Shown: positions 19,083-62,819 of the stretch, in pieces | Numbering within the stretch: position 1 is the first letter of the stretch | How the letters are laid out: every line of letters starts with the position of its first letter | Assembly (NCBI GenBank): GCA_037042915.1 | Contig: CM073194.1 | Location: 4,402,001-4,466,000, forward strand | Direction: 5' to 3' | Source: Auricularia sp. M13 | Lineage: Eukaryota; Basidiomycota; Agaricomycetes; Auriculariales; Auriculariaceae | Length of the DNA stretch: 64,000 nt | Notes under the pieces: model-generated | What the model was told of the DNA's origin: nothing | The model's database searches: none | The model's input: the letters and a program-made list of their open reading frames with translations, nothing else | Position numbers and translations under genes: made by a program

Positions 19083-19318
19083 GATGATAATGGAGGGGAT
19101 GGATGGGGAGGGAGGAAGGGGTTGTGGGAGGTATGGGGAGGATAGGGGTAAAAGTGCGCGTGTGTGTGGAGGGGGACCAGAGGGGACTGGGGGAAGTCAA
19201 CCTGGTTGTTGATTCGGAATGTCCCGCAGAGCTGATAAAGGGCTTAGGGGGTGGCGGTGGGCGGAGGAGAGGCATCCGCGCAGGTCCGAGGGCGGGATCG
19301 TGAGAGGTGATCGAGAAA
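18306..19318 (-). repeat. Right arm of the roughly 1-kb inverted duplication
   Basis: Inverted partner of 8279-9298. The two arms are separated by about 9 kb that carries the long unknown gene, the F-box pseudogene and the third-copy fragment. Similarity ends abruptly at the stop codon. Confidence 0.92.
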
Positions 19319-19532
19319 CCATCTTCCGAGGAAACTTCTCGCCTCCGAGTATGGTGCCCGTGACGCGAATCGTCTTGTACGAGTAGAAGGATGGTGAAAA
19401 GCACCATCGTGTTCACAATACTGTAATTTGCAAACACTTCTTTGATTCCCAGACCATTCCTTCTGTAACGAGCGCTATGAATTGAGATAATACAGATGAT
19501 CCAGCACTACGAACCACACACCCGACTACACA

Positions 19533-41255: not shown

Positions 41256-44102
41256 ATGGCGCGCAGACGCAACGGCATCACGCCTGCCCAGCGCGAGGCC
41301 CGCCAGAAATCTGCACAGAAGGCCAGGGCTACCCTTTCCGCCATACAGGCTGGTCGTACACCGCCTGCTCGTTCCGTTGCGAAAAAAAAAGTGTCATCGC
41401 GGACACACCAGCGCGTCCAGCAGCGCTTGCACGATTCCGGCGCCCTAAATAGGCGTCTCCGACGTCAGATGGACAACATGCAGCGCCAGCGTGATAATCA
41501 CACGGTGGCTCTGCGCCGAGCACGCAGATCTGCCTCGGACGATCGCGCTTCCTGGATCACCGACGAACTGCTACCGGTGCAGGGGCTACTGGCCGACTTG
41601 CAGGCCCGCCTGGTTGTGGCTTTGTCTGAGTTAAGCATGGTCAAAAAGAAGCATGCAGCACTTCAGAAGAAGTTCTCCAGGCTTGTTTCTGACCATTCGG
41701 CTCAGATGGAGCATGCTATCACGCTCTCTGTCGCCGAGGCTACTACTCTCAACCTCATGGAGCCGAGAAACCGGAACTGGTATAACCCTAAGGCCCGCGC
41801 AATGATACGGGATCTGATGACGGTTGGTGTCCGGACCGATGCTGTGGCAGACGTTATCAACATTGTTGCCGCATGCGCGGGTGTCCGTGTTATCGGCCAT
41901 CCAAGTAAAGACCTCGTTCGGCGCTGTGTCATCGAGGGAGGTGTTGCATCTACAATGCAGATAGCTGAGGAAATGTCCACCTCATCCGGTATGTGCTCAG
42001 CACTGTGAGCAATCAATCTCATGCTCACTGATTCAATCTCAGGAATCGCGCTGAGCAGCGATGGCAGCACACACCGCAGCCTCAATTACACATCCCATCA
42101 TGCGCATCTCAGCTTCCCTGACCGCGCACCTGTTGCCCGTTTCATTGGACTTGTCCGCTCCCCGAACCATACAACCGAGACCCAGCTCAACGAGTGGATT
42201 CTCATGCTGGGGAACTTGGTTAGTGGCTTGGCAAAGAGCCCGAGGGGTTCCATCGTCAGCCTTACCAAGTACACAATTGCTCGGAAAGCCAAATGGTTCG
42301 TTTCCGATCATGCCAATGACCAGCGGCTACTTCAGAAGGAGCTTGCAAAGCACTTCAAGGAACTGCGCATTGAGGCCTTGGCTTTCGACATTTTGGACGC
42401 TACTGGAGCCATCGAGTACGCCGACATCATTGCGGAGGAACGATCGGCTGTCGTTGAGGAGGCTGGCGGTGCACTTGCGTACGAGCTCATTCCGGAGGCA
42501 GAGCACGAGCTGCGTGAGCAAGAGATCCGCCTGCGTGTTGCATCACGCATTGGACCTGCTATCTATGCATCTCTGTCCGAATCCCGCCGCTTTACCATCG
42601 AGTTCTTCGGAGGCTCCCGCTGCGGGATGCACAAGGCTTTGAACTTCGTCGTTGCTGGCAACAAAGCTATGAAGGCTGAATGGCTTCTCCTTGGGCTCAC
42701 ACCACCTCTCCAGCTCCCGAATAAGGACGTTGCGGGTAGAGCAGATGCCCGTGATGGCAAGATCCAAGCTGGCGGGGTCAAATCCTGCCAGCTATTCGGG
42801 TTGCTGTTCAAACCACGTGACAAAAAGCGTGGCTACCAGGCACGGTTCCTTGTCTACATGCGACAGGAAGCCAGCTGCACGGTCACAGTTCCCGATGTCA
42901 GCAACACTCGCTATGGCTGCTATTGCGACGCGTCCGCATTCATTCTGCTCCACATCGAGCGCATTCAGCGCTTTCTTGATCTCGTCCGCATGACGAAGGT
43001 CAAGCACAAGGTCTTCACAAACATTGAGAAGAACTTTTGGAATGCTCTCGACGACGATCCGACGCTCACGGAGCACGCTGTGCTGGCCATGTTTGGCATT
43101 GCCTTCTGCGAGCCCTATCTCGCCGCCGTACGGAAACCGGGAGTCAACGCGCTGGATCTAGGACCACTTCACGAGCAGCTTAGACAGCACTGCAAGGATA
43201 TACTTGCAGAGCCAGAGCGCCTGACTGGTGCTTTGGGTTCCGATTCACATCTTCGGGGCGCATTCCTTGGCACAGAATACTCGGACTACAACCGTGCGGT
43301 TCTGTACTGCATACAGGACTTCCACTCCGTCGGACGCATGCCGCACCTCAACAAGATGCTACAGGCCTTTCTGCGCGGAGTTCTCGACTGCTTCGATCGA
43401 TTCACGGACGAGTGGGCCGAGGATGGGCTGCTTGCTACTGCACCTTCTGAGCTCACCGAAGGACTGTTTGCTCCAGCCACCAACGACTTAAACGAGAGCC
43501 AGATCGCGCGTCTGCGTAACGGGATGCTCAAGCGAGCCAACCAGACCCTGCTCTACCATAATTCCCTCGTTTCATACGATTTCAACGGCACTCGGGCATA
43601 CGTTCGGAACCTGCCCGATGAGGACCAGCGGCACCTCCGCACAGCTGGTCTAGAGCTCAGCAGAGCTCGACTCGAGCGCGAGGACGACCGTAGGCTTCAG
43701 GAGTACGAAAAGGAGCAGCTTTTGGCTGCTGAGGCAGAGGTAGAGCGGCAAGACGAGGTGCGGGCAAAGGCAAGAGCGGAACTTGACCGCATCGAAAAGG
43801 AATCACTATTCCGCAGCATGGAGGCGCTTCAGGAGGCAGAAACCCGCATACGAATCACTGGCGCAATTCTCAAGGACAATTTGCGCTGGTATAAGGCCAG
43901 AGGTGACCCCAAGGCTTGGCCGAAGGGTGCTAAACTCAGTGCCAAGGTTGACCAGCTCCGCACATGGCTCGAAGCCATTTTAACATTCGGCGAGGCTGAA
44001 AAGCGTTCGCCTGTAGTTGACGACGATGGGGACAGCGATTGGGAAGATGAGGACCCCGGTAACATGGAGATAGAGGAGGAGGATGCTATGGACATTGACT
44101 AA
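41256..44102 (+). CDS. Transposase-like protein of an unplaced family, 930 aa
   Basis: Exons 41256-41988 and 42043-44102 sum to 2793 nt with no internal stop. The N-terminal 120 residues are basic and coiled coil (RRLRRQMDNMQRQRDNHTVA). The core has an RNase H-like (DDE) look: IALSSDGSTHRSLNYTSHHA with a candidate first Asp, EFFGGSRCGMHKALNFVVAG with a C-x-x-H-K motif, and LFAPATNDLNESQIARLRNG with a candidate last acidic residue. The C-terminus is a long charged coiled coil and an acidic tail (DWEDEDPGNMEIEEEDAMDI). I recall similar H-K-x-L-N proteins as repeated families in Agaricomycetes. No terminal repeats or target duplication were found, so it may be a degraded or captured element. The start follows GCGCGC in the block just before MARRRNGITPAQREARQK. 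Confidence 0.65.
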
Positions 44103-44233: not shown

Positions 44234-45579
44234 ATGAAGACGGTTACACCGGAGGGTCGGAAATCGGACTTATCCGTCGGACATGGCTACAACCGGGAGT
44301 AAGCTAGGTCACATCGTGAGTCGTTCGAATACTTATTTATCTTGTCTCACCTAGTTACCTAATCTCTCCCCAGCGACTTCATTTGCGAGATCGGCGCCGT
44401 CATAATTCACCCCGCTACGATGCAGTTCTTACTGTTCGTCAACATGGAAGGGCGCTACTGCTTGCCTGATCACCCCATTGAGAACGGCTTTGTCTCTTCG
44501 ACAAAAGATCCTTTAGCATTTGCCGCACAGGAGGTCCGTCTGTGACCTAGCGTCCGACCACGACTCTGACTGACTGAACTCGACCAGACTGGATATACAA
44601 TATCACGTCTGCCTCTCCGAAAAGTCACTCGCGGCTTCGAATTTACAGTAAAGCTCCTCCAAGTCGGAATCCTTCCGCTGAACGCCCCGAGTCCATCGCC
44701 GTCTATCTGGATACGCTTACAACCGATGCGTTCCATGTCAGCATCGACAGGACATGGATTGCAGAAGAAGGATCCGCGTGGCCCCAGCCACGCCAGCTTA
44801 TCACATTCTGGTATGCTGGACGCATCTAAAGCTCCAACCGATTACATTACCATTACGCCCGAAGATAATATAATGGGAATAAGTAATGTAATAGGTTGTA
44901 ATACATTATAATTCATTATATTTCGCATGTGGCACCTGTGCCTAGAGTACAGGGAGAGGGGTAACTATCAACTACTTGCAAACTTACCAGATATTCACCA
45001 GTGTAATCATCAACACTATATGAGATGCATGGGGTGGCATATTGGCCAAAAATTGGTCTTGCAGAGGCTGAACACAGTCCGGAGGCAGTTGGCGCAGATC
45101 AATCAATAATCACTGAAGCAAAGGACCCTTGGTATATGCTCTCACCATGGTCTCAGGTGTCCAATCAGCATATATGAGAGTCCCACACCTGCCATCACTG
45201 AGAAATCCTCCCTCTCATCTCTCACCAGCCTGCTATCTCGCATTATAAGGCTTATAGGTGATATAATGCATTACAACCCGTTACAGGGAAATTACGGGGC
45301 CATGTAGAATAATCGTAATAGATAATGTAATATAATCACATTAAATGGGTAATTAATGTATTTAGTTGGAGCTTTAGACGCATCGACGACGAACACCCGC
45401 CTCGTGTGGCCCCTCGCGAGCCCGATGATTCGGCGACTCGCCAGGGTCACTTGCTATCCGCCGACGATGCCTTCCGTGAACTATTGGATGGAGGTGCTGC
45501 TACAGCGACGGATTTCGAAGCATTCGGGGCTTTTCTTGAATTATGGAACAAGACTAATCCCAACGACCCTATTAGATGA
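44234..45579 (+). pseudogene. Nudix-like gene 1, interrupted by a MITE and frameshifted
   Basis: Exons 44234-44298, 44374-44533 and 44588 onward follow the same three-exon plan as the other four family members. The protein reads DFICEIGAVIIHPATMQFLL, EGRYCLPDHPIENGFVSSTK, DPLAFAAQE-TGYTISRLPLRK. The frame changes near 44640 before SKAPPSRNPSAERPESIAVY and TWIAEEGSAWPQPRQLITFW-YAGRI. At 44827 a 550-bp hAT-type MITE is inserted. The remaining C-terminus (DDEHPPRVAPREPDDSATRQ ... FEAFGAFLELWNKTNPNDPI) resumes in frame immediately after the second target duplication and ends at 45579. The gene is therefore broken twice. The closest family member in the window is the one at 57151. Confidence 0.85.
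44827..45376. mobile_element. hAT-type MITE, 550 bp, inside Nudix-like gene 1
   Basis: The ends are TAAAGCTCCAACCGATTACA on the left and, on the complementary strand, TAAAGCTCCAACTAAATACA on the right. Both sides carry the perfect 8-bp direct repeat GACGCATC (44819-44826 and 45377-45384), the target-duplication length of hAT elements. The interior is AT-rich with many TAATGTAAT-type motifs and no open frame, so it is non-autonomous. The identical duplications suggest a recent insertion. Confidence 0.93.
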
Positions 45580-45882
45580 TGTGTGCACTCCGTTGGAGGT
45601 TATACATATTGTACGGGACTACGCGCGTTTATTGGCAGAACATTTGTCTACGAGGAAGTGCAGCCCTTCGTTTCAAGCTGCCGGTTGTAGTTTTCGTTGC
45701 TGTCACTTATCAGCCGCACTTCGAAAAAGCTCAGTATGAGATCATATGAAGGAAACCTATAGATCTATTTAGTACTAGAAATGAAAGCACTTATGCTCTT
45801 GTCAAACGATTGGTCCAGGAGTGGTTTCTTATACAGTAGTCGGTGTCAGCCGGCGACATTCTTCATCTCAACCATTGACACC

Positions 45883-46647
45883 ATGAGCGACGACACTTTC
45901 CAGCCGAAGCCAACCAGCTTTTCTTCTTCCCGTTTTGCAATGCGCTCCCACTGGTCTCCTGCGTGTGTGACGATCCACAGTCAGCTGCTTAGCTGCCATC
46001 GGTACATAACTTCGTTGTTTCGGCGACGTCGTTATGAGCGTCAGCGTCATCGTGCTCGATGAGCAGGGCGAAAGCGCAAAAGTGCTCGTCGTGCAAAACA
46101 GCGAAACAGGGCTGTATCAATTCCCGTGGTGCATAAACGACAAAGGGGATATCGGGGAGTTCGCGGAGTCGCCGTTCGAACAGATCACGAAAGAGGTTCG
46201 GTTTATACAGGCATTGGCGCTTTGGACTGTAACCACCCTTGCAACTGCGATGTTTAGACAGGATACGTTCTCGAAAAGAGGGCGCTTCCCAGGCTCTGGC
46301 GCGAATACAAGAATCCGCAGGCGACCGACTCGGACTGGCGCGACCTCGAGGTTGAGACGACCATGCTCGACTACAACACCTACGATCCCTTCTTCATGAC
46401 GGTCGACATAATGTACTTCAAACCGTACTGGACCTCCAAGGATATATCCTTGGAAACTATGCAGCGCATCTCGCTCTGGTTCGTGTGTCGCGCGCCGGCC
46501 AATGAGTTGGAGCACGTGATGTGGATGACCGTCGACGAGGCCAGAAAGAAGCTCATGGACCAGCAGTGTCCCGACACGGCGGGCCGTTCTGCCTTGGAGC
46601 AATTGGTGGCGGCGACACACCAGACTGCTGATACATTAGGGCCGTGA
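45883..46647 (+). CDS. Nudix-like gene 2, 221 aa
   Basis: Exons 45883-46001, 46039-46195 and 46258-46647 sum to 666 nt; the first intron (37 nt) is unusually short and is the least certain part. Reads VSVIVLDEQGESAKVLVVQN, GLYQFPWCINDKGDIGEFAE and FEQITKE-TGYVLEKRALPRL, then TYDPFFMTVDIMYFKPYWTS and ISLWFVCRAPANELEHVMWM. The Nudix fold predicted from G-x-Y-x-(L/F)-P ... (T)GY is kept. The box itself reads E-Q-I-T-K-E where R-E-x-x-E-E is expected, so metal binding is doubtful. The unusual C-terminal half may carry the real activity or a binding site. The 45580-45882 gap upstream shows nothing. Confidence 0.7.
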
Positions 46648-46977
46648 GTTCGACTCGTTATGCCACTGGTTACCGTGCCAGATTCCCAGTAGCTGAGCGC
46701 CCGCTACATACAATAGGTAGATATCAACCGCGGTGAGTCAGTCTGGACTCCAGACTGCGGCACTGCTCGCTCTGGTGTCGCGTCGTTTGGCTTCTAGCTA
46801 CAGTAGCGATGGTGTGACGTGCACCTTCGACGTAGACCAGCAGCATCCGCTACCAAGTAGCATGCATGTGTCTAAGCCGAGATAAGCCATTCTCCGTAGA
46901 CTGACGAAGGTAAGCTGAGTGAGGCGAGGGGGATGTACAGTATATTATGATGCACAGTACGATACTTGAGAGTGAAT
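46648..46977. other. Short intergenic stretch, 3' flank of two convergent genes
   Basis: It lies between the stop codons of Nudix-like gene 2 (plus) and SDHAF2 (minus). No feature was recognised. Confidence 0.5.
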
Positions 46978-47490
46978 TCATGCGGACGGCAGGTCGGGCA
47001 TGCGGCGTATGACCCTGGCGTCGTTGCGCGCATGGGTCTTGAGGCGGTCGAGGATGGGCGAGGCGGCCCAGCGCGCGGGCGGGTCGCGCTTCCCGATGGC
47101 CCAGTAGTAGATGTGCCACTCGGGCTCGTTCAGCAGCTGGCCGGCGTGAGACGACGACAACGAAGGAGGGAAGACAAAGAAGGACGGCACCTCGTCGTAC
47201 TCGCGCAGCTCGGCGTCGGACATGGCGCGGAGGTGCTCGGAGGCGAAGGTGCTGAGCAGCAGGTCGCACTCGAGCGTGCCGCGCTTGCGGCTCTGGTACA
47301 CCAGCCGCGCGCGCCGCGTCTCCGTCGGCTCGTCCGGCCGCGGCGCGGGGCGCGCGGGCATCCCGCCGTCGTCCTCGGGCGCGTCGACGATGGACAGTGG
47401 CAGCGGGAACGGGTCCTGGCTCGCGTGCGTGAAGCGCTGCTGCAGTAGACGGACTCTGACTCTGAGTCTGAGCGCCGAGCGGAGCATCAT
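46978..47490 (-). CDS. SDH5: Succinate dehydrogenase assembly factor 2, mitochondrial, 152 aa
   Basis: Exons 47490-47191 and 47136-46978; a 54-nt in-frame GT-AG intron (47190-47137) is removed. After a basic mitochondrial presequence ([20 protein letters not shown]) comes the SDHAF2/SdhE domain: [57 protein letters not shown]. The RG-x-x-E motif and the E-P-E-W-H/D segment are diagnostic. The protein binds the flavoprotein SDHA in the matrix and promotes covalent FAD attachment in complex II. Without removing the intron the conserved DE-LLNEP junction would be broken by 18 extra residues. Confidence 0.92.
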   Translation of the reverse strand: [170 protein letters not shown]

Positions 47491-47578
47491 GACGGTGATC
47501 GCGGGAGGAAAGGACAAGTTCGAAGGTTCGGTCGGGCTGCGGAGTTTGCTCGCCTTGCCTCTTGCCCTCGCCATCGCG
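47491..47578. promoter_or_regulatory. Compact bidirectional promoter, 88 bp
   Basis: The start codons of SDHAF2 (minus, 47490) and ALY (plus, 47579) are only 88 bp apart, so promoters and leaders must overlap or extend into the neighbouring gene. No TATA box is evident. Confidence 0.6.
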
Positions 47579-48852
47579 ATGACCGACTCCAGCAAGCGTC
47601 TTGGGAAGCCGTACGAGGTCCGTCGGGCCACCTTATATGCCCATCATCTGACGGCGCCCTGCAGCGCACGGAGCGCACGCGCGCGCCCGACGGCCAGTGG
47701 CTGCACGACCGCGCTCCCCGGGGCAGCGGCGCCAAGGGCCGCGAGTCGACTGGCGGCGGACGGGCAGACGACGAGGCGTCGCCCAAGCTCGTCGTGTCCG
47801 GCCTGCACTACGAGGTCACCGACCGCGATCTCAGCGTGCGCTCTCTCCCCGATCCCCGCTGCTCTATGGCGCACAGCTGATGAATATAATCCTTGGTATC
47901 AGTCGGCCTTCGGGGCCTACGGCACGTTCTCCAGGGACCCGTTCATCAGGGTGCGTTCGCTGCCGTGTCGTTCAAGACCATATGGTGGGCTGAACACGCA
48001 TTATGGCTCAGTACGACCGCAGCGGGCGCTCGACGGGCGTCGGCGTCGTCATCTACACCACCGCGGACGAGGCGGCGCGCGCAAAAGTCCAGATGCAGGG
48101 CGTCATCCTCAAAGGCCCGTCGCGCATTCCGTTTTAGCAGTTCCCGATGGCTGATGCTGAGACGCCCGGCCGCAGGCGTGTCGCTTCACTCTTGTCCTTG
48201 ACTGACTGCAGCGCTGACGCCTGCGTGTGCGGACCCGCTCATAGGTGCCTTTCGATATCTTTTGTTCAGTTTTTTTATATCGTTGTTGCTGATACAACCG
48301 CAGGCGAGCCGTCTTGCATTACATACTGTACACAGCGCTGACGACGGCCCGCGCTGACCACCCAAAAGGTCAGTGCGAATCGTGAATCGAGCCTGTTAGT
48401 GTTACCCGCTTGACATGACGTGACGCGCAGGCGAGCCCATCGACGTCAAGTACGAAAAATTCGTCCCGCGCGCCGAAAAGGCTGGCGGTGGCGGGCGGCC
48501 GTCGAGCAGCGACCCGTCGTCGCTGCTCAACCGCATCGGCAAGCCGCCGCTCAAGGACAGGATCACCGACGGCGACGCGCCCATGCAGACCGACACCAAT
48601 TCGTGAGTTGCCCACTCATCCCCCCTCCCCCCCTTTCTCGCATTCTAACGCGCCGGCGCGCACAGCGGTCCCGGGCCCATCCGCACGAAGAGCACGCGCG
48701 GCCGCGGGGGGCGCGGGGGCGGCGCTGCGAGGGAGAGGAAGTCTACTGGCGGAGGGGGAGGTGGCGCGCCGAAGACGGCTGAGCAGCTTGATAAGGAGCT
48801 CGAGAATTACGCGGGGAAGCCGGCGGCTGGGGACGTCGAGATGGCGACTTGA
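47579..48852 (+). CDS. ALY/REF-type mRNA export adaptor (RRM protein), 239 aa
   Basis: Exons 47579-47617, 47665-47835, 47903-47950, 48012-48114, 48431-48602 and 48666-48852 sum to 720 nt. The central RRM reads SPKLVVSGLHYEVTDRDL (RNP2 region), then YGTFSRDPFIR and YDRSGRSTGVGVVIYTTADE (RNP1 region), followed by GEPIDVKYEKFVPRAEKAGG. A Gly/Arg-rich tail (TKSTRGRGGRGGGAARER) and a short C-terminal acidic helix (AEQLDKELENYAGK) complete the REF plan. The protein couples splicing to nuclear export through TREX. The fourth intron (48115-48430, 316 nt) keeps frame only with a GC donor (AAAG|GCCCGT), which is unusual in both length and donor. Confidence 0.9.
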
Positions 48853-49145
48853 GTTGAGCTGGGCGGAAACCTCCAGTTCGCTGTGTGTGTTGTAATTCCT
48901 TCAGTTTGTGTTCTGCGTTTGTCTGTCTATGATCTCTTCTCTCTTGTGAGAATATATGTGTGCGCTCGCTCTGTGCTACTTACGTATTATCTTCGTGCTT
49001 GGTTCACTCAGAGTCGTAGGCGGGCTACTGGCAGCTACTTATACGAGAGTTTGAGATTCAAGTTGGCACGTCAGTCGGCCAGCTCCGATCATATACCGTT
49101 TCCCGATTCCTCACCAACCTCGACTCGCCAGCCGCTATCGTCGCA

Positions 49146-50262
49146 ATGGCCGTGAGCACCCTCCCTTCATCCATCCATCCATCACCCACCCTCTCTTCCG
49201 CTGACTTGACTGAACGCGCGCGCAGTCTGGCTACGGCTTTAACGGAGGTCTGCTTCAAAAGCCCCGCGTTGTATACCCACCGTGTTGACTTGCTGCGCGT
49301 GTAGGCCGCGGGCGGTGCTTCCCGTACTGGCAGGAGGTGCTCAAGTGCTACCAGAATACCGAGGAGCCCGCGCTGTGCCGTTTGCGCGCGGACGATTATT
49401 TGGAGTGTTTGCATCATCGGAAGGAGGTGCGTTCATCGTTCTCGTTCTCGTTCTGTTCGCTGCCCAGTCCGCCCGTGCTGTCCGTTCGAGCGTCGCTGTC
49501 ATCCCGCCTGGGCTCTGCGCTTGACGCGCGCGCCCTCTGAGTGTTGGTCTTCGTGTAAATGCACGGATGAGCCAGGGCCTCGGATGGCTTGCTCACCACA
49601 TTCGCAAGCCTTCCCGTCATGTCTTCTGCTGCTTCCTGCTTTTTATTCTCTGCAAGACGTGTCGTACACTGTCGCCATTCTACAATACCACCCGTCTTCA
49701 TTCTACCCGTCGCCATTTCCAATGTATCCTCTCGCCCACTCAGCCCGTCACCCTCGCCATTTCTGCGTGCTCTTTTGGCTGCCGTCTCGGGCTCCGCGTT
49801 CGAGCCTCGCTGCCATTTCGGCCGTCCTGCTTTGCGCGCGCGCTCGTCGTGTTGGCGTAAATGCACCGACGAGCCAGGGCCTCGGGTGGCTTGCTCACTA
49901 CATTGGCGTCAAGACCTCACGCAATACCCGCGCTGTGTTCGAGCTTCTAGGCGCTGTGTATTGACTGCACCGTCCATCGTACACTGTCGCCGTCCTTCTA
50001 TACCCGTCGCCATCCCACTCACCCTCTCGCCATCCCATCCCACCCTACCTTACCCGCCGCTCACACTCCATCCCACACCCACACACAGGTCCTGCGCGCC
50101 AAGATCGTGCGGAACGAGTTCATCAAGCAGGCCGCGCACCTGGACCGCGAGGCGCGCAAGTCGCACGACATCGCCGCGGGGGGCGCCATCGCCACCGTCG
50201 GCATCATCGACCGCGGCGCGTTAGGGGAGGGCGGTAAAGGCGGCAGTGGTGGTGGGCATTGA
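49146..50262 (+). CDS. NADH dehydrogenase (complex I) 15-kDa subunit, NDUFS5-like, 107 aa
   Basis: Exons 49146-49151, 49226-49247, 49305-49426 and 50089-50262 sum to 324 nt. The sequence MASGYGFNGGRGRCFPYWQE continues with VLKCYQNTEEPALCRLRADD-YLECLHHRKE. It has a twin CX9C motif: C-FPYWQEVLK-C and C-RLRADDYLE-C. These cysteines form the disulfides of the CHCH fold after MIA40 import into the intermembrane space, where NDUFS5 is part of complex I. The first exon has only two codons. The last intron (49427-50088, 662 nt) is an order of magnitude longer than its neighbours and contains an internal duplication. Confidence 0.9.
49456..50000. repeat. Degenerate tandem duplication, period about 300 bp, inside the NDUFS5-like intron
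   Basis: GAGCCAGGGCCTCGGATGGC at about 49569 recurs as GAGCCAGGGCCTCGGGTGGC at about 49871. The flanking C/T-rich stretches (TCGTACACTGTCGCC ... TACCCGTCGCCAT) also recur. The intron therefore grew by duplicating a segment of roughly 300 bp, which has since diverged. Confidence 0.8.
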
Positions 50263-51720
50263 CGTATGTGAGTGTCTGTGTCTGGGGGGGCTGGAGCGTG
50301 GACTTGGTGCTGATGTGCGGTGTGCAGGTAGAGCGTTCGAACTTCGAATAAACATTCTCGTGTCTCTTGCATTTGCATTTTGATTTTCTGTTCAACGTCA
50401 GCTCTGCCTGCCTGCCTCCGAGTTCTTGGCACTGAGTCTGACGGGATATGGCCTTGTGTTCTACTTTCTACTTACTTACTGGGCAACTTCGCTCTCATCG
50501 ACGCGCACACGAGTCTTGCATCCCAAAGACTCGACAACCTAGACGTCGTTTGCATATCCTAGCAATTCATATTGCCTCTAGCGGTCGTCTGCACGGGTCG
50601 GTTCCGCAGACGGCCTGGCCTTTCAATATCAATTCTGGTTGCTCTGCCAGTGGGACAGCCGCCATGTCCGGGCTGCGCGTCTTCTTCGCCACCCCAACCC
50701 GCATATTGATATTCGTGTGCTGCCTGCTGTTTTCCCGCTGATACGTGCATGGGGACTGGGCTGTGGGAACCGGAAAATGTCCAAGGTCGTGAAGAAGGGG
50801 CCGTTGCAGAGCCGACTTGCTTCGAACGTTTCGTCGTCCGCGCACAAACGGCAATTTGGGAGGAAGGGAGACGAGTTCGCCGTAACTGGGACTCGCCGCG
50901 TCGTCGTTACTCTTGGAGTTTAAGAGAAGGAGAGTTTAGCCTCGGACTCCTAGCCCGGACTTGACAACCACGATGACCGACGACATCGAACCAATGACAA
51001 GTTGCTTCTCCTCGTCCTTTATCGGGAGCGCGTACTGGACCCTGGTCCCAGGTGTGGGTGGTGATCTACAGCCCTGTTGACGGTACCGACGAGTGAGCGA
51101 CAACATTTCGCCGACGCTCTACTCCGAGTCAGCTCGTTCCGCCTCAGCCTGCAAGTGCTCCTCCCCTTCGCCGCCACGCCGCTACCTGCTCAGCGCCACC
51201 CCTCATCCCGCACGTCGAGAACTTCCTCGGGCTCATCGGCTACCCACTTCCTGGAGCTCGGTCGACGCTTCATCGTACACCTGGTGATGCCAAGTCCGGA
51301 GAGCGCTGTTTTCGAGATACGTTGTCCGGGGCGAGCGAGGAGACTGCCAGTGCCTCTTGGGATCGCTGTCAATGCACTTGGGAGCTTGCGGGTGCATGGA
51401 GGAGGCTGACCTTGGCGTATATCGGGACTGATACTGATGGCAGGAGATCGCGCCTCTGAGTCTTGGGAAAGTAAAGGGGCGGAACGTTTGCGACGTGGGT
51501 GCTCGAACAGTGACAGAACACGGACCCCTGAACGTCGACTTCAGGTCAGCCTGCTTCCTGTCGCGCGCAGTACCGCCCGAATTCTGCTGCATAGGAGAGG
51601 TATGCCAGCCGTTTAGGCTGTCACTGAGGGAGGTGGCACCGGGCGGCCGATGCCGAGAGTCAACTTGAACTACTACTTGTCCACTTGCATCCTCAATTTC
51701 CACTTGCATCTCCTCATCCC
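50263..51720. other. Intergenic, 1.46 kb, nothing recognised
   Basis: Short frames on both strands lack motifs and splice support. A frame at 51077-51409 is leucine-rich by composition but matches nothing recognised. It could be a decayed gene. Confidence 0.4.
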
Positions 51721-52467
51721 ATGGGTCAAGAGAGGCCTCCCGCAGTCATGTGGACAAGCTATACATCTGTTCACAAGGATGATGGTACCCTTTGCGCACC
51801 GTATGTCCGAGTCGACTGTTCCTCTTTTTCAAAAACATCCTTACTTCGAGTCGAGGGATGTTGCGTATCAGAATGGCGCGGTCGTCATCAACGAGAAAGA
51901 CCAAGTTCTCGTATTCGAACATATAGAATCCGGAATGTACAGTCTGCCTCGCCTGATCGAAGAGGAGTCGCTGGAGAAATTGATCAGGTCGCCTCTGCAA
52001 TTCATCCATGACAAGGTGTGCTTGTGTTTCATTTGTCGCCGAGTCGTGTTTTACTTTGGATATAGACTGGGCTCTTCGTTGAGCGTCTCCCTCTTGTCAA
52101 GCCGGTCAGAAAATATAAAAGGCCGGACGCCGAAGCGTGGCATGACGTGGAACCGCAACTATGCTTTGAAAACGCCACCACTACGAGTCCGTTCTTGGTC
52201 GCGCTTGACCTTGCTTGGTTTAGGATCCGCGAGCGCCCTGAGAACTTGGACGGACGACAGTCGTTTGTTAACTGGTATAGCGGCATCGTTCGAGGAAATC
52301 AGGAGGGCACACGCGAGTCGAAGGATTCAATTTTCCGTGTCCATTTTATGTCGATCGAGGACTCGCTTGCGACCATCGTGGACGATGACTACGTCGCCCG
52401 ACCCGCGCTACTCCTCTTCGACGTGCTGTGGAATGCCACCAAACGCCTTCACCCAACGACTAATTAG
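51721..52467 (+). CDS. Nudix-like gene 3, 213 aa
   Basis: Exons 51721-51800, 51856-52015 and 52066-52467 sum to 642 nt. Reads DVAYQNGAVVINEKDQVLVF, SGMYSLPRLIEEESLEKLIR, SPLQFIHDK-TGLFVERLPLVK, then TTTSPFLVALDLAWFRIRER and RQSFVNWYSGIVRGNQEGTR. Exon 2 has the same length (160 nt) as in genes 1 and 5, and intron 2 falls exactly before the TG(Y/L) codons in all five. Where a catalytic Nudix box would have R-E-x-x-E-E, this protein has L-Q-F-I-H-D-K. Probably soluble. A long hairpin lies 25 bp after the stop. Confidence 0.75.
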
Positions 52468-52491
52468 ATATTACTGACACAAATGTTCCCG

Positions 52492-52533
52492 TACCTGCGT
52501 CGCACTAATATTACTATTAATGCGACGCAGGTA
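52492..52533. repeat. Long near-perfect hairpin downstream of Nudix-like gene 3
   Basis: The arms TACCTGCGTCGCA (52492-52504) and TGCGACGCAGGTA (52521-52533) are exactly complementary, and the stem extends inward through TAATA/TATTA with one mismatch. It sits between the stop codon and a MITE. It may be a 3'-end structure or an element remnant. Confidence 0.85.
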
Positions 52534-52537
52534 AGTA

Positions 52538-52697
52538 CTGTACCGTATCGACCGTAGGTTCAGTAACGCGTAACGCCCACCTCTGAAAATTAAGGTTTGA
52601 TGTGCGGAATCGGCCGCGATCTCTTATCGAGGCTCATAAAGATTAGATAAATTCTATCGGACCCCGTGGGAATGAACCTACGGTCGATACGGTACAG
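52538..52697. mobile_element. Tc1/mariner-type MITE, 160 bp
   Basis: A perfect 24-bp terminal inverted repeat begins CTGTACCGTATCGACCGTAG at both ends. Each end is flanked by TA (52536-52537 and 52698-52699), the Tc1/mariner target duplication. There is no coding capacity. It lies about 100 bp upstream of Nudix-like gene 4, so it may contribute to that promoter. Confidence 0.85.
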
Positions 52698-52796
52698 TAT
52701 ACGGGACTCTCAAATATTATCCATTGCTAGCGCTGATCAATCGGAAAGCACCGGAGCTCATCGCCGTGCCGCCTGTGACTCTGTCTCACGCCGCCA

Positions 52797-53566
52797 ATGT
52801 CAGAGCCTCTCGCAGTGCCGACTGCCAATTCGTCTACGTTCCTAAATAATGTCTATTGGTGTCCTGCGTATGTATACGGCGTGTGATATTGCCCACAGCA
52901 TTGACTACGCCTTACAGCGACTTGCTGACCGAGACCGGGGCCGTCATCATCGATCGGAGCACTGGCAGCGAACGCGTTCTCCTTGTCCGCGACGATACGC
53001 TGGCTATGTATACCCTGCCTCGGAGTAGTCTGACCGGTATGGATGATTTGATGGAGTCGGCTTTGCGTGCTGCCGAAAGCAAGGTCTGCATCGTGGTTGT
53101 TCAATCATATATATGAAAGTTGATGATATTGTAGAGCGGGCTACAATGCGAGCGTCTCCTCCTTCCGCGAATGGGCAAATATACCGTTGTTCCACCTGAC
53201 GGAAACTGGGACAACGCCGAAGCCCGGGCGGTCTACGTCAGGAATGAAACGACTACTAATCCTTTCGTTGTACTCTTCGACACCGCATGGCGCCAGTCTT
53301 CGGAGGGCAGATGGGCTCATGGATTCCAACTCATTACTTTCTGGTTCACCGGTTTCATCAAGGCAGGCCTCACGGAGCAATCATCCCTGCCCGCACCACT
53401 GGTGGAATCGCAGGAACCTCCGTATCTCTTGTTGTCGATCCCGGATGCTCTCCGCCGCCTCGAGGACAAAGACAAGCCTGCATGGAAGGCTTTGTTACAG
53501 TTCGACAGGATATGGAAGGAGGTAAAAGATATGGATAAATCGATTCCCACGGCTCCGGTTCAGTGA
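52797..53566 (+). CDS. Nudix-like gene 4, 222 aa
   Basis: Exons 52797-52867, 52918-53083 and 53135-53566 sum to 669 nt. Reads DLLTETGAVIIDRSTGSERV, LLVRDDTLAMYTLPRSSLTG, MDDLMESALRAAESK-SGLQC and, after the core, TNPFVVLFDTAWRQSSEGRW and FQLITFWFTGFIKAGLTEQS. This member gives the clearest alignment to a Nudix box: M-E-S-A-L-R-A-A-E-S-K-S-G against E-E-A-A-x-R-E-x-x-E-E-T-G. The segment is kept but all three glutamates usually needed for metal are replaced. A pseudoenzyme or ligand-binding role is therefore inferred. Confidence 0.78.
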
Positions 53567-53678
53567 CAATGTAGCATGTGATAATTCAGGCCGTTAGGCT
53601 TGCTGCCTGTGTCAGTAATGAGAATTTCTGCCAGATATGTCGGTTATCATGGTGTCGGAGCCACGATTTCGAGGACCG

Positions 53679-55546
53679 ATGCTTCGACTCTTGCCGCGAC
53701 AATCATGCTTTGCCAGAAATGTGCGCGTTTCGTGCCGTCGCCTGGCCACCGCAGCGGACAGGGAAAGTCTGTTCAATACCACCATGTTCGGATATACCTT
53801 CAAAGAAAAGCAGCGTTCGTACATGCGCGCTATTTTTATTTGCGCGTCGCCTTGCTAAAAAGATGCCTCTCATTAGAACGCGCCATGCATAGACTTGAAT
53901 TCGATGTCGAGGCCCTAGGAAAGGCTGCTGCAAATGCAGTTCAGGCTGAAAAATGCGTTGAAGTACGCAAAATATGGGAAGGTGAGTGCCCGCCGTTGTC
54001 GAGTGCTGTATGCTCATTGATTTATTACCAGGGCCAATGAGCCGTACTTTCAACCTCACGATGGACACCGGAGAGCAACTTATCGCCCGTTTTCCCTTCG
54101 CTTGTGCCGGTCCGCGAAAGCTGTTGATCCAAAGCGAGGCTGCGACGCTCGATTTCCTCGGACAGCATTTCGACCTTCCCGTCCCACGCGTAGCCGCATA
54201 CTCAGCCAGCACTTCCAACCCCGTTGGCGCGCCCTACATCTTACTCAGCAAAATTGAGGGCGAAGAGCTCACGAGCGATGTGGTCGCAAAACCGGGCCAT
54301 TTCCTCGACAACCTGGTTCGCTTCCAGGCCGTCCTCGCCTCCATTCCCTTCGCGCAACACGGCAGCCTATACTATACGACTGATGTCGACGAGTCCTTGC
54401 GCGAGCGCCCTTTGTTTATCGACTTTGAGGGCTTCAAACCCGACGAGGACACGACGGCGCAGTTCCGGATTGGTCCGTCCGTCTCGCGCAATTTTTATCG
54501 GGGCGACAGAGCTCTCCTGGATATTGACCGCGGGCCTTGTGAGTTTTTTTTGGGAGGTTGCAGAGTTACCGAGTTATTTCTAAAGCTCTATGGTGACAGG
54601 GCCGAACGATGCCGCATACTTCAATGCCGTTGCAGACTGCGAAATCAAGTGGCTGCAGTACTGCGGATCGTTTGACGAGGCACGGCGCACGGCGTGGGAG
54701 CCCACGCGCTCACCGCAAGAGCATATCGACATTCTGCAGCAATGGCGCGAGGTGGCGCCGAAGCTCATGCTTGCGAAGGATGCGCCGCGGCTCTGGCACC
54801 CGCAGATGGGGTATACCGAGGTCCGCGTGAAGCGCGAGGGCAACGAGTACGCTCTTGCGGGCGTTGACAATTGGCAGGGCGCGTGCATCGCGCCGCTCGC
54901 ACTGCAGACGACATTCCCCAACGTCGTCGACCCGCGCATACTGGACAACGCCATCGAGGAGACCGCCCGGCTCAAGCGCGCCGCGGCGGGCGAGTCGGCC
55001 AAGCCCGCGGAAGACGACAATGAGGTGCCAAACGAGCTCAAGGAGTTTGTCGCCGGCTACCTGCAGAAGATGAACGATACGGCGCCCGTCGTGGCGCACA
55101 TGCAGCTGAGCGACATGCTCTTCGTGGTGCGCCAGGCGCACCTCGACTCCATGCGCAGCTGGGAGGTCGGCGCGTTCTGCCTGCACTACTGCCTCTACCG
55201 CCTCGCGCAGGAGTTTGCGTCGTACCCCGAAAAGGAGCTGCTCGGCACCGAACTGCCCGTCGCGCGCCCCGTGGAGACTCCGGACGAGAAGGCTGGCGCG
55301 CTGTGGCAGCTCCACCTCATGCTTCAGGCACGCTTGAACACTGCGTTTATGGAGAACGGTATCCTTGGGCTCAACGCGGACGGACACGTACCGCCTCATC
55401 AGGTGGAGAAGGCGAAGGAGGTTGCTCAGGCGGTGCTGGATGCCTGTTTGGGGGCGGCTGAAGACGAGGACGAGCGTGAGCGCATACGGCACGTATGGCC
55501 GCTCAGCGAGGCGCGTTACACTGCATGTACCGAGAGCTGCGAGTGA
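53679..55546 (+). CDS. AIM9-like mitochondrial protein of the aminoglycoside phosphotransferase/kinase fold, 559 aa
   Basis: Exons 53679-53785, 53863-53981, 54032-54538 and 54600-55546 sum to 1680 nt. An Arg-rich, acid-poor start (MLRLLPRQSCFARNVRVSCR) predicts mitochondrial import. The kinase-like fold is visible as EGPMSRTFNLTMDTGEQLIA-RFPF (nucleotide-loop and Lys/Arg region), LDFLGQHFDLPVPRVAAYSA, VGAPYILLSKIEGEEL and a later GVDNWQGACIAPLALQTTFP. The last part stands where active kinases have the metal-binding D-x-x, here with VDNWQ. This is typical of Aim9/Fmp29-type proteins of unknown substrate. The first intron join is the least certain. A 14-residue longer start at 53637 is possible. 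Confidence 0.82.
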
Positions 55547-55990
55547 TCCTCGTCGCTTACGGGAATAATCACGAACGGCCGTTCTTATTACATTGGAGTC
55601 AGCCATAGTAGTCCCTCGCCGGTATGACACTCGTAAGTATATTCAAGGACCTTGTAAGACCAGCAGCATATTCGTATAGGTGATAGTGCGCAACCGATTG
55701 CTCCTCATTTTGAGACGTCCATGCCTCCTGTGAGGAACAATGTGTTGTCAATGTGAGTGACGAGGCAGTATCCGGTGACCTCATGTTCGGCCAAGTCTGA
55801 AGCGCGTCCTTGCGTCTTCGGTGACACTAGCTACATGGAAATGAAGCGCAAATTCCATCCTGATCTTTGCCGTCTGGGAGAGCACGGTCTGGCGGATGCC
55901 GAACGCAGCGCGCTGGTCAGGATTACCAGCCAACCCGTGATGAAATTACAGCGGACCATAACGTACAACGACCTCGAGCTCAATCGAAGT
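55547..55990. other. 3' flank of two convergent genes
   Basis: Between the stop codons of the AIM9-like gene (plus) and FCF1 (minus). No gene or terminator structure was recognised. Confidence 0.5.
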
Positions 55991-56952
55991 CTAGGATGCG
56001 ATGCCCGAGTCCGGAAGCCGCTCGATAGCATACTTGCGTTTTACGATGTACATGAGCGGCACGCCGGGCACCTTGCGCACTCGCCGCCGGAGCTCGCGGT
56101 CGCACGTCGCGACGATGTAGCAGCGGTGAGCCGTGATGCGCTGGATGAGGCAGTCGTCGGCATACGTGCCTGGGTGCGAGCAGGGCAGGCGTTCGAAGCG
56201 CGGGTCTCGTGCGACTCTGTACGGCAATTTAGCATGCAGATTCAGGTTGATAGAATGCAGATACAGGGTCAGTAGGATGGGGAGAGGGAGAAGTGATTTG
56301 AATAGAGTGCCGCGAAGACGAGCGGGATGGTAGGGTAGATTATGTGCGGGGCGAAAGTTCGAGGACTCACCGCAACGCTATGCGAAATCTAGGTCCCAGC
56401 TTTTCCAGTTCGGCCATCACGCAGTCGGTAACGCATGGTATGCCTAGACGCTCGACAGTCAGCCTGTGCAGAGCGCAAATAGTACGGATTCCACACGAAC
56501 ATTTTGCGTACAAGCAGTCCATCATGCCGCTGACAAGCTCAATCTTGTTCTGCAGCGAGAAATTGATAAAGTTGGTATCAATGAGCACGCGGTACGGCGG
56601 GGCGAGCGCTTCATTGTGCTGAAGGAACAGCGACGAGGCCACTTGAGGTCTGAGAAACTGCTGTGAGCATCCGCTTTATAGCAGGATAAATAACCAACTC
56701 ACACTCGACGAACAGCCTGGGCCTTTTTCTCCTCCTCCTTCGCCTTTTGCTTTATCTTGTTCTCCTTTCTGGCCAGTGTCAGCATTCAGCCTTGCGAGCC
56801 AGCCAGGAGGAACAACGAGCGTACAATCTAGCATCGTTCGGGTTCAGCAGCCGCTTGACTTGGGCAAACTTGCGAGTTTTCTTAACGCGTCCCTGAGGGG
56901 TAAGCAGTGCTCAGCTACGTGCAGCGGTTCTGCGAGAAGGTAAACGTACCAT
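55991..56952 (-). CDS. FCF1: rRNA-processing protein FCF1 (PIN domain), 194 aa
   Basis: Six exons: 56952-56950, 56892-56825, 56768-56703, 56649-56501, 56443-56371, 56216-55991, summing to 585 nt. The first exon is the ATG alone. The protein reads [23 protein letters not shown], then [20 protein letters not shown] (PIN Asp), [33 protein letters not shown]... with [20 protein letters not shown] and [20 protein letters not shown]. These are FCF1/UTP24 signatures. The enzyme acts in the small-subunit processome and cuts pre-rRNA at sites around 18S. The acidic PIN residues (D in IDTNF, E in MAELE, DD in YADDC, D in TCDRE) are all present. The last residues usual in orthologues (GGAPR-type tail) are absent. 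Confidence 0.95.
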
Positions 56953-57150
56953 TGCGACTCCGAGTGGCGGGTGGCAGGAACTTGCAAAGAATCGGCAACC
57001 TGCGGACCTTTCCTTCGCACTTGAACGCCCTGCCAGTCATCCAGGAAAACCTCAGGCTGCCAGCTCAAACCCAATCTCAGGGTGTCTGAATACGATGCTG
57101 CTTTTTGGGAAATTGTCGCGGAAAAGATACCATTGCTCAGCCTCCGTCAG

Positions 57151-57969
57151 ATGGCCCCCGATACGCTGCATCCTGGGACGCAAGGCCCTTCGAACACTCC
57201 TATGTCTTTGAACCCAGTTAAATTCCAGGCATTATCGTCAGCGTCAGTCTCCTTTTCTCCAAACTCCTCTGTGACCGACTGTAGCTGTCTTCCGAAGCGA
57301 TTTCGTGTGTCAGATTGGCGCCGTCGTCTGGCACGCCAAGTCGCGCAAGTTTCTAGTTTACTTGCGGAAGGAAGGCCGCGATAGCCTTCCCATACGGTCT
57401 GCAAATGGCGACCTCTCATCGTTACTGTTCGATCCTCTAGCCTTCGTAACTCGCGAGGTACAGTACATACCGTACGCTCCTGCGTCTCGGCTTGAGGTTA
57501 TTTACTCATTATCATTTGCCCTTAGACAGGTTACAATATCGAGCGCCTGCCGCTCTGCAAGTACGACCGTCGCTTCCGCTCTCCAGAGTCGGGCAAGTTC
57601 CAACCGATAGCCGTGTTGTCGGAGCCGCGCGAGGTCTCCACCGACCCATTCATAGTGACGACCAAGATGCTCTGGACACCCGACACCCAGCCCGGGCAGC
57701 ATGCGCAGTCGTCTTCAACTTGGAACCAGCTGCGGCAATTCGTCACATTCTGGTTCGCCGGCGTTATCGTGGATGAAAATCCTCCTGCAATTGCGCCTCG
57801 TAAACCCGATCCTTCCACCGTCGCGACTCATACCTGCCACCTTATTCACGCCGACGATGCGTTTAGGGAATTTCGGGACCAGAAGATAGATGGTGAGGTG
57901 GACTATGAGGTTTTGGGAACCTTTTTCGATCTCTGGTATGACACGTATCCCCGGGACCGAGCTGTTTGA
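57151..57969 (+). CDS. Nudix-like gene 5, 229 aa
   Basis: Exons 57151-57236, 57298-57457 and 57526-57969 sum to 690 nt. Reads DFVCQIGAVVWHAKSRKFLV, YLRKEGRDSLPIRSANGDLS, DPLAFVTRE-TGYNIERLPLCK, DPFIVTTKMLWTPDTQPGQH, LRQFVTFWFAGVIVDENPPA and HADDAFREFRDQKIDGEVDY. It is the nearest relative of the broken gene 1: both share CxIGAV, DPLAF, TGY(N/T)I and the ADDAFRE C-terminus. The box shows A-F-V-T-R-E instead of R-E-x-x-E-E. The FCF1 start codon lies about 200 bp upstream on the other strand, so a promoter is shared. Confidence 0.78.
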
Positions 57970-58469: not shown

Positions 58470-61400
58470 TAGGGTGCTGTTAAAAACTCGCCGTGAGTTT
58501 TTAACACGTTAATAACAAATGTGTTATTAACAAAGTGTTATTAACAGTGTTATTAACAAAATACTACCTGATGACTAAAGGAGTGTTGGAGGGCATTGGT
58601 TGTTTCCAGAAGCATTGAATGCACATTGTAATTGTACCTAAACAACAAATTTGAAGTCTTCCTTCTTGAGCAACGACGCAAAAGCCTTTTTGGCGGCACT
58701 GGACACCTTGGCCGGTGCCACAGACACACGGACGGGGTGATCGACCTCCAGCTGTGCATCGCTAAGAAGGTCACGCAAGAAACTGGAATCCAGTGTGACC
58801 TTATCCGCCACTGTAAACCCCAAAAAGGCGCTTGGATCAGTCGGCGGGGCGTCGTGCGACTCAACCTCGTCGAAGACATCTGCCCCGTCTATCGTGGCTG
58901 CTTCTCCGTTAGGCTCGAGGTTACTGGATGTGGTACCGGCTGTCGGGTTTTGAGAACGAGCTGCATTGGAATAGCGCAGAACGTCTGCTGATGTGGAGAG
59001 AACCTCTGCGCGGATGTGAGCTGCCAAGTCTCGGAACTTGATGACGGAAGGAGGATCGGCGGCGGTCTGGTCACAGTGAGTCGTAATTATGTGAGAGCAT
59101 AAGTCTTTGCGCACCTTCTGTGCATTGCGCTGGCGATCGTAGTGCTGCTTGACCTGCACCTCGGAGACCAGAGAAGAGATCTTCATCTGGGAGCGACCAC
59201 CGCTCTGAGCTTTCGTCATTGCCGACATGGTCCGTTCCTCAGGCATTGAATTCGGAAGAATTGAGAGCAGTTTGCGTGCTAGAAACTGACATAGGGATGA
59301 GTTTTCAAGCGGTGCAGAATGTTCTGAACACACCGAAACGATGTCCGCATCAAGGCTCTGGGCAAGTTGGTCCCAGTAATGTCGCCAGCCGCGCGAGCTA
59401 TCTCTGTTAAAGGGAGACTCCTGGCGTGCATACGCTCGAAATTGCGACTTGAACGTGTCGAATAGAGTCTTCGGGCTGTCGTACGATTGGAAAACGGTTG
59501 CCTCACCCGCCACGGCGTGTTTGTAGAGGTAATCCGAGAGAAACTCGCCGATCTCCTTGTAGTAAGGTATTGAGTCAGCGAGATCGCCATCTGGTCCACT
59601 GGTAGCGGCCCCGTCCTCGGTGCTCTTTCGCCAGAATGTGCATCGGACGTACACTACATCGAAACAAACATGAGCCATGGGCACCATAAAACAAAGATGA
59701 CGCACTCGGATCTAGGAACAAAGCAGCCTTGTACACTGCATTGGATGGGCCTTCGCACATGGCGGTGTAGCGGCTGTTGACGATGGACGTTATCGCTTCG
59801 AGAACATCGGTGGGTAACTCGAGCACCGTGGCATTGTCGACAAACAGGTCCTGCAGCGTGGCAATGACGGAAAGCCAGAATAAAAATACATGGCCCGGGT
59901 GGATATGCGACGACTCGAGGCATTTGAGTGCCTTCCCAAGTGGAGTGAGAACGGCGACAAGCTGGCGGACAATGGTGTCGTAGTTGTTGAACTGTGTGCG
60001 GCCTCGTAGAAAACTGAATGTCTCCCGCTCCTAGACGCAAAATCAAAATAATATCGTACAGTGTTGCTCTCACACACCTTCTTTGTAACAAAGAGAACTT
60101 CGGAGTCGACGAGAGTCTTGATCGAAGGCAGATTGCGGACAATCGAGTGGCAGGCGCGGTTGATAGAGGCAAAGCATGTCTTCCCAATCCCTTCCAAGTG
60201 TCGTGTTACACCATCAGCCTGCGCTTGACTTTTCATACGAGTTGTAGCAAAGGAGGACATCTTGAAAAAGCGCAGGAGAACTCGTGAATTTGCTATCATC
60301 TTATTGTATGATCAGCAGTAGCAACAGAATCGCATGAAAGTGACCTCGAGCGCACCTTGGCAAAGTATACAAGCGCTCCAATGTCCTTCATCGTAAGATT
60401 CAGATGATGAGCCGCGTCCGCCAGTGGAATAAGCGTTGGTACAGCTTCAGCCAGCTTTTCACGAGCTGCCTTTGTGACGCTGGTGCTGTCCGACACGGCG
60501 CAGATGAATTTCGAGAGACCGATCTTCTTCATCACCTTCAGATTGACCTCAACAACGTACTCCGTAGTATGCGAAAGCCCCGAGGATTCGTCCCCGGCCA
60601 TGAGATACGAGTGGCGTGTATCGGGTGCGGTGACATGAACGGTGTAGACGGATTGCACGAGCTTGCTCGTCCCTCCGTCGTACGAGATTGTGAGGTTATC
60701 CATGGTGTGGAGGAGCTCAGTCGCAAGCTTGGTCACACGGGCGGCCTCCATTGGCATCAGGGTCTCCGCCAGGTGTGTGCTTGAGAAGACATCGAGACGT
60801 GGATTCGCCGCATGGATAAGATCTTCCCACTCATCGTAATCGAGCGCACGAGCTGCGAGACTCCCGCGGGCCCAGAATTTCAGAACAGCAAAGTCTAGCC
60901 GCTTCTGCTGCGCGGCGAGCCCTCCATTACGTGCCAAGTCAACAATTGTCGTCTGCGTTAACTTGCCAGACGTTCCGGGACGCGATGCGGAGCTTGAAGC
61001 CGGACCGACACCCTTGCCTTCGGCGGACTGGGCAGAGTCCAATTTTTCGATTTCTGCTCCAAGTGCAGTGCTCGCCATTTCGTCCATAGCGTCCTTTCTG
61101 AGCGCGTCGGAGATATACTGGCACTCCGAGATGTGGTGTGGCAGAACACGCGTCTTTTGCCGACTCGTAAACGACTGCGGACAATCGCCCTGCGAGCAGC
61201 GGTACCACGTCTTCCCAGGCTTCGACCGCGAGTCGCACGGGATCGTCAAGGTGCGCACTATCTCGATGAATTTGCGCCCGGTGTTGCTGACTTCCTGCTC
61301 CTCGACGTCGGTCAGGTCATCCGGGTCCCATCGCCACTGCAGTAAATCGGTATGTTGCCCTCGGTTCAAACTAGTCACCTCGAGACTCACAGTTTTGGCC

Positions 61401-62819
61401 TTCCTTTTGTCACTCCGTGCAGCTTTCACCGCCTTTTTGCTTGGGACCGGCCTCTCGTTCTCGCTTGATGCTCCATCGGAGCAGTCAACGTCCATCGGCT
61501 CGTCGTCTTCGCCTGCCGGTGCCGCCTTTCCATCCTGGGATGTCAGACACGGTCAGTAAAGGATACATGCATCTCATTGGGCCCTGCTAACCTTTGGTGT
61601 TCGTGCAGGAGCGGCCTTCGGAGCGAGTGGCGCACGTTGGAAGACTGGCGCCAGCGTTGGCGCCTGCCCGATGGCAGTGGTCTGTTTCACCGCCGGATTG
61701 GGATCCATATGGGTACGTTCAGCCTCGTCCACCATGTCTGTGTCGCTTAGAACAATGGCTCAAGAGGTTCCAGCCCGGCCGCTCGGTCGGCGGATGAACG
61801 CGCCGTCGTCGTCGGAATCTGGCACGTTGATGGGCTCTGGCACGGCGCTGGAAGCAGCGGCTGGTGCCATTGGGGCTACAGGTGCGTTATGCTGCTTTGC
61901 TCTCTTTGGTGCGGCGCCAAGCTGAACAGACGAAGCTGCAGGCCGTTTCAAAGCGGTCGCAGGCTTCTGGATCTTCTTCGTCGACACCGACATGCCGGGG
62001 ACGCCGTTTCCAGCTTCGTCACTCGCGCCCAGTAATACAGGATCCCCAGCGCTGCCGTCAGGACGCTGGCGAGGCTTTGACTTGCGCTTCAGAGCCGGGA
62101 CCTGCAATTGTTAGCACGGCACTCGCAACCAACTGCTTCAGTCAACACACCTCGACGTTGTACTGTGCATATGCCGCAAGCGCAGACCTGATTAGATGGT
62201 CCACCCACCGCCGCAGCTTGCTCGTAGCATGGTCCTGTTCGTTGCTGATGTACTTGCGTAGCACCTCGACGACGGCATCCAAACCCTCGCTTCGTTCGAC
62301 GAACATAGCAATAGGACCCGAGTCCAGGTCACCGAAGAAGATCGAGAGGTGTTTATCAACAGCCCCCTGTGCTGACCCTGTCGATTCAATGTCCCATTCG
62401 GCCACTACAAAACGGTGGAACTTGTAGACACGTGTGTCAGTTGGAATAGCCTTTGGTAGATTTTGTAGAAGAAGCAGCAGATAATCGAGCTTCGCTTCTG
62501 TATCAGGCTCGGGCTGGCTCTTGTCACTGCTGAGCTCAGCGGCCATTGCACGGTCCGCAAGTCTGCGATAGCCAGCAGGATCTACCGTGGAGTCGAGACG
62601 AAGCAGCGGCAGCACTGCCGCTGATGACTCCGGTTGTTCTTGACTACTAATGATCAAGATTAGAGTTCAAAAGTTACGTGCTCAACGCGACACAGACCGG
62701 CTCTCCCAGAGAGCGATTTCTGTTTTTAACACGGCCCTCCCGGACCCGGCGTTAATAACATGTTATTAACACTTTGTTAATAACATTGTTATTAACAAAC
62801 ACTTTTCAACAGCACCCTA
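58470..62819 (-). mobile_element. hAT transposon, 4.35 kb, with transposase gene
   Basis: The ends read TAGGGTGCTGTTAAAAACTC on the left and TAGGGTGCTGTTGAAAAGTG on the right complement. Both are flanked by the perfect 8-bp duplication CGGTAGGC (58462-58469 and 62820-62827), as expected for hAT. Subterminal clusters of GTTAATAAC/GTTATTAAC occur at both ends (58505-58560 and 62750-62800), likely transposase-binding sites. One minus-strand multi-exon transposase gene fills the element. It looks whole and recent. Confidence 0.92.
58638..62657 (-). CDS. hAT transposase, multi-exon
   Basis: The gene runs from about 62600 to the stop at 58638 in several exons. The main parts are 62657-62151, 62107-61760, about 61690-60296, 60287-60080, 60050-59725 and 59705-58638. 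The middle carries a BED-like zinc finger (TWYRCSQGDCPQSFTSRQKT ... LPHHISEC). The DDE core reads DNLTISYDGGTSKLVQSVYT (first Asp), KFICAVSDSTSVTKAAREKL (second Asp) and LADAAHHLNLTMKDIG, where the usual Cys of the C-x-x-H motif is Ala. The C-terminal dimerisation region reads WRHYWDQLAQSLDADIV, LARKLLSILPNSMPEERTMS. The first exon has no clear ATG at its frame start; MAAELSSDK is a candidate. The join near 61760-61720 could not be settled. Confidence 0.82.

Follow-up and report, generated by a model that had tools for sequence, protein, structure and literature searches.

Five strongly diverged, possibly Nudix-derived genes in a local family of Auricularia sp. M13

In the genome of the basidiomycete Auricularia sp. 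M13 (assembly GCA_037042915.1), a family of five homologous genes was identified on the plus strand of contig CM073194.1. The genes are located within a stretch of 64,000 nucleotides (positions 4,402,001 to 4,466,000), which was analyzed as a whole, is called the window in the following and is numbered from its first letter. The DNA of the window is of eukaryotic nuclear origin, and its genes have short GT-AG introns. A preliminary description, made from the letters alone, had reported five Nudix-like plus-strand genes at these places. The gene models, which were rebuilt from exact anchors, are as follows:

44234..45579, plus strand: copy 1 (g1), a pseudogene with exons 44234-44298, 44374-44533 and 44588 onward; its remnant resumes at about 45376-45579.
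46034..46647, plus strand: copy 2 (g2), an open frame formed by 46034-46195 and 46258-46647, 183 amino acids.
51721..52467, plus strand: copy 3 (g3), open, with exons 51721-51800, 51856-52015 and 52066-52467, 213 amino acids.
52797..53566, plus strand: copy 4 (g4), open, with exons 52797-52867, 52918-53083 and 53135-53566, 222 amino acids.
57151..57969, plus strand: copy 5 (g5), open, with exons 57151-57242, 57298-57457 and 57526-57969, 231 amino acids.

The five-gene family is real, as tblastn, a family hidden Markov model (HMM) and the shared intron plan agree on the homology of all copies. Comparisons of copy against copy by tblastn gave E values of about 1e-16 to 1e-3. The family HMM, which was built from the copies themselves, matches 11 open reading frames (ORFs) that contain parts of exon 2 or exon 3, with E values between 1e-57 and 1e-16; the best-scoring non-family ORF follows at E 1.9. 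A possible sixth copy on the minus strand (22097-21966; tblastn E 0.004 with a copy-1 piece as query) was dropped by eye and is not among the HMM matches at E<=5.

Exon 2 has a length of 160 nt in copies 1, 3 and 5 and of 166 nt in copy 4. In these four copies intron 1 is a phase 2 intron, splitting the codon after its second base. Intron 2 is a phase 0 intron in all five copies and is located directly before the TGY, TGL or SGL codons that follow the box region, exactly as had been described. All nine modelled introns are bounded by GT and AG and are 50-75 nt long. The three-exon plan attributed to the whole family was found in copies 1, 3, 4 and 5, but not in copy 2, where intron 1 has no AG acceptor. 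Together with the homology of the copies, this plan supports the local expansion of a strongly diverged family.

Copy 1 is decayed. Its exon 3 leaves the frame near 44645 by a frameshift, and the gene is further interrupted by an insertion resembling a miniature inverted-repeat transposable element (MITE):

44827..45376: MITE-like insertion of 550 bp in copy 1; its terminal inverted repeats read TAAAGCTCCAAC.., and 8 bp of target sequence (GACGCATC) are duplicated at 44819-44826 and 45377-45384.

The remaining pieces of copy 1 share 39, 40, and 51% of their amino acids with copy 5. In copy 2, sequence resembling exon 1 is found from 45883 onward and a GT donor is present at 45963. The position corresponding to the acceptor of intron 1, however, reads CGG|CGACG and thus contains no AG; the frame opens at an ATG at 46034. 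The preliminary description had counted four copies with kept frames, which can be maintained only if copy 2 starts at this ATG inside exon 2, and copy 1, broken twice, is the one that has lost its frame. From the gene models, copies 1 and 2 look damaged and copies 3, 4, and 5 look intact.

A self-comparison of the window by blastn (E 1e-10) found no match between the copies at the DNA level, and the duplications are therefore old. The closest pairs are g1-g5, with 39-51% amino acid identity by piece, and g3-g4 with 29%; pair identities are mostly 17-51%. Codon-level constraint is visible among these genes. For the pair g3-g4, codon position 2 differs at 97 and position 3 at 124 of 203 codons (p 0.01), and for g1-g5 the corresponding numbers are 76 and 139 of 216 codons (p 2e-9), the counts having been rebuilt from rounded proportions; the two pairs share no gene. 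The proportion of nonsynonymous differences (pN) is smaller than that of synonymous differences (pS) in all 18 listed comparisons. This agrees with selection on the proteins, but it is weakened by the synonymous distances, of which 11 of the 18 are saturated. Open frames and signs of purifying selection occur together in the family, with four open copies, pN below pS and position 2 changing less than position 3.

These data bear on the possibility that the copies are relics, i.e., pseudogenes at different stages of decay which have no present function. This explanation fits the twofold break of copy 1, the missing acceptor of copy 2 and the low pair identities. It is nevertheless considered rather unlikely, as copies 2 to 5 are open over 183-231 codons. 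Neutral change was simulated in 5000 replicates per gene; with 20% of the sites redrawn, only 204-251 of them stayed free of stops, and fewer did so at 30-50%. The stronger conservation of position 2 over position 3 also speaks against relics, although such constraint could have ended recently. Because of the codon positions, the low pN and the rarity of stop-free simulated genes, the copies must have been under selection during part of their history.

The Nudix box Gx5Ex7REUxEExGU, numbered here as G1, E7, R15, E16, E19, and E20, is not matched by any of the copies. At the place of RExxEE, copies 1 to 5 read AFAAQE, EQITKE, QFIHDK, RAAESK, and AFVTRE, respectively. Each copy contains at most one of E16, E19 and E20, and only the final glycine and the hydrophobic residue of the box fit throughout. 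Copies 1, 2, and 5 keep E20 as the sole one of the three metal glutamates. Copies 3 and 4 keep none of them and have a lysine at position 20; copy 3 contains E7 and D19, and copy 4 contains D7 and R15. The former statement that the metal-binding glutamates are lost in all copies was therefore too strong and applies to copies 3 and 4 only. The distance between the LP or FP motif and the T/S-G motif is 22, 23, 22, 21, and 22 residues in copies 1 to 5, compared with 21 in six bacterial Nudix boxes. Ordinary Nudix catalysis by the copies seems unlikely, because the metal glutamates are mostly gone. A non-hydrolase family, as proposed in the preliminary description, is probable.

The intact copies could still be enzymes, namely hydrolases or transferases of the Nudix fold whose metal site has changed and is made of the remaining box acid and of acids elsewhere. 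Columns 90 (E), 195 (D/E), and 202 (D), in the numbering of copy 5, hold an acidic residue in each of the four open copies, so metal ligands could be supplied from outside the box. Moreover, 38 of 78 Nudix-clan structures are without a canonical box and some of these are hydrolases, and the GDP-mannose hydrolases NudD and Gmm work with a box RLxxAE, according to a survey of the clan (PMC5389931). Loss of the box is therefore in itself no proof of a pseudoenzyme. NudD and Gmm resemble copies 1, 2, and 5 in that E20 is the only metal glutamate left. Unlike these copies, however, both enzymes keep G1, E7, and R15. Further points against an enzyme are the lysine at position 20 in copies 3 and 4, the lack of any box acid common to all copies, and the serine which replaces E90 in copy 1. 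Taken together, retained enzymatic activity is judged quite unlikely.

Several observations favour a Nudix ancestry of the family. As in the Nudix hydrolases of PF00293 (e.g., AtNUDT1, PDB 5wy6), the motifs follow the order GAVVI, VLV, LP, helix, and T/S-G, the spacing from LP to TG is 21-23 residues, and the existing weak matches lie in the right register. For copy 2 the top Pfam family is PF00293 (E 0.046), with residues 2-31 aligned to model positions 5-34; its 14.2 bits stay below the cut-off of 21.1. When 177,635 distinct PDB sequences were searched with the family profile, a single match was obtained at E<=10; it is the Nudix hydrolase 5wy6 (E 1.6), with the alignment at its EETG. In hhalign comparisons, 15 random seven-member subsets of Nudix proteins scored 18.4 on average (13.1-22.8), and five decoy families, which were cut and sampled alike, reached means of 11.1-13.7. 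One hand-cut seven-member Nudix profile scored 30.4, a value reached by none of 200 column shuffles (largest 18.7).

Against this ancestry stand the differences from PF00293 and a number of negative searches. Most of G1, E7, R15, E16, E19, and E20 are replaced in the copies, and no database model reaches its cut-off. No Pfam family is matched by copies 3, 4 and 5 or by the fragment of copy 1, and neither the family consensus (full and trimmed) nor the five trimmed copies match a Nudix family there; trimmed copy 2 gave FlgD_ig instead (E 0.075). Likewise, NCBIfam gave no Nudix match for copies 2-5 and PHROGs none for the consensus or for copy 2 in trimmed form; the family consensus found no match in the PDB. 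The hhalign score of 30.4 did not recur when the profiles were cut according to match coordinates. When all kept members entered the domain-cut profiles, Nudix (17.2) fell behind glyoxalase (18.0), and one response-regulator subset scored 20.6. A comparison with 49 narrow bacterial clusters did not separate the four Nudix clusters, at 13.5-17.0, from the other 45, which reached 19.9. The fairer decoys thus reduced the hhalign signal to a tendency, with Nudix having the highest mean of six families and the ranges overlapping.

Structure prediction also counts on this side, as the AlphaFold models are of low confidence and uninformative on the fold. Their predicted local distance difference test (pLDDT) scores are 44.2 for copy 4, modelled with intron 2 read through and hence 17 non-protein residues, and 40.8 for exon 3 of copy 5 alone. 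In the copy-4 model (pLDDT 44.2), strands are followed by a helix at the box, at least five strands and two helices; this is compatible with Nudix and proves nothing. Foldseek found no Nudix protein for it among 27 PDB matches or the best 50 of 222 viral matches.

The family might not be Nudix at all and have another small alpha/beta fold, in which Nudix-like motifs arose by chance. The absence of any model at cut-off, the overlap of the profile scores with the decoys and the uninformative structure models agree with this explanation. It is regarded as unlikely, as those weak matches that were obtained point to Nudix in the right register, and the highest mean score of the six families belongs to the random Nudix subsets. 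The Nudix ancestry implied by the preliminary description is plausible and, in our judgement, favoured by about two to one, on the basis of the PF00293, PDB and mean profile scores, the last of which overlap with the decoys.

Searches in other sources were carried out with single copies and with a motif pattern. Relatives of copies 4 and 5, each searched alone, were not found in viral contigs, and phage records yielded no more than 14 matches to copy 4, all at E 2-6. A degenerate DNA pattern, derived from a basidiomycete Nudix motif, has no match in the window. Four viral contigs that matched this pattern were rejected, since they encode PKGRKD in an apparent primase-type protein, which is not Nudix.

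With moderate confidence, the five genes are best explained as an old, locally duplicated birth-and-death family that is most likely Nudix-derived, its intact copies perhaps being non-catalytic binders. The products would be single-domain proteins of about 210-230 amino acids, descended from a Nudix hydrolase by old local duplication. Their fold would comprise a strand at GAVVI, a strand at VLV, the L-P motif, a helix at the former Nudix box, the T/S-G turn, additional strands and a helix at the C-terminus. The intact copies would no longer hold the metal ions used by ordinary Nudix hydrolases. If they act, they may use the old substrate cleft to bind either a ligand resembling a nucleotide or another protein, like known non-catalytic Nudix proteins. 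A more specific proposal is a putative fast-evolving local pseudo-Nudix family, which has kept the scaffold, given up metal catalysis, serves as sensors of nucleotide metabolites or proteins and turns over by duplication and decay; we consider it quite unlikely.

If the family is Nudix at all, it belongs to a kind already known, that of duplicated, box-less Nudix-like proteins. SDOS (NUDT16L1, TIRR) is a non-catalytic NUDT16 paralogue with replaced box glutamates (PMC6294507), and it is likewise a duplicate. In contrast, five local copies, two of them damaged, are present here, and the likeness lies in the replaced box, not in any detected sequence kinship. DBC1 and NUDT21 (CFIm25) are non-catalytic proteins of the Nudix clan in which the box glutamates are lost and the roles are non-enzymatic (PMC5389931). 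Their domains belong to different Pfam families, none of which matches the copies in Pfam. In the open-access literature searched, no basidiomycete family of this kind was found to be described, an absence of little weight. A constrained pseudo-Nudix family would provide a natural series of five copies with differing box remnants on the way from a metal-dependent enzyme fold to a binding protein, and mere decaying paralogues would represent ordinary gene turnover.

The surroundings of the family contain ordinary genes and transposons:

Between copies 2 and 3: SDH5 gene.
Between copies 4 and 5: APH-like gene.
58470-62819, beyond copy 5: hAT-type transposon with terminal inverted repeats TAGGGTGCTGTT..AACAGCACCCTA, an 8-bp duplication (CGGTAGGC) and a DUF659 match on the minus strand.

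Genes in the window also encode, among others, ribosomal protein S3 as well as proteins of the ATG11 type and the SRF/MADS type. No partner gene accompanying each copy was found around the five copies, and nothing therefore argues for a multi-gene system. The suggestion of an undescribed system was not borne out, given this lack of a partner, the ordinary genes and the hAT-type transposon around the copies, and the damaged look of two of the five.

Further repeats were observed in the window. A perfect, MITE-like inverted repeat of 27 nt is located between copies 3 and 4 (52536-52562 and 52673-52699, 110 nt apart), and a direct repeat of about 75% identity is found at 49483-49605 and 49797-49907. 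An inverted duplicate of about 1,025 bp (8277-9301, plus; 18303-19324, minus) is 95.6% identical and much younger than the Nudix-like copies. Each unit contains an open frame of 296-297 amino acids, and the first unit (8277-9301) has no Pfam match at E<=0.001. Finally, an open frame of 697 amino acids at 42009-44099 gave no match in a Pfam search; it may be KDZ-transposase-like.

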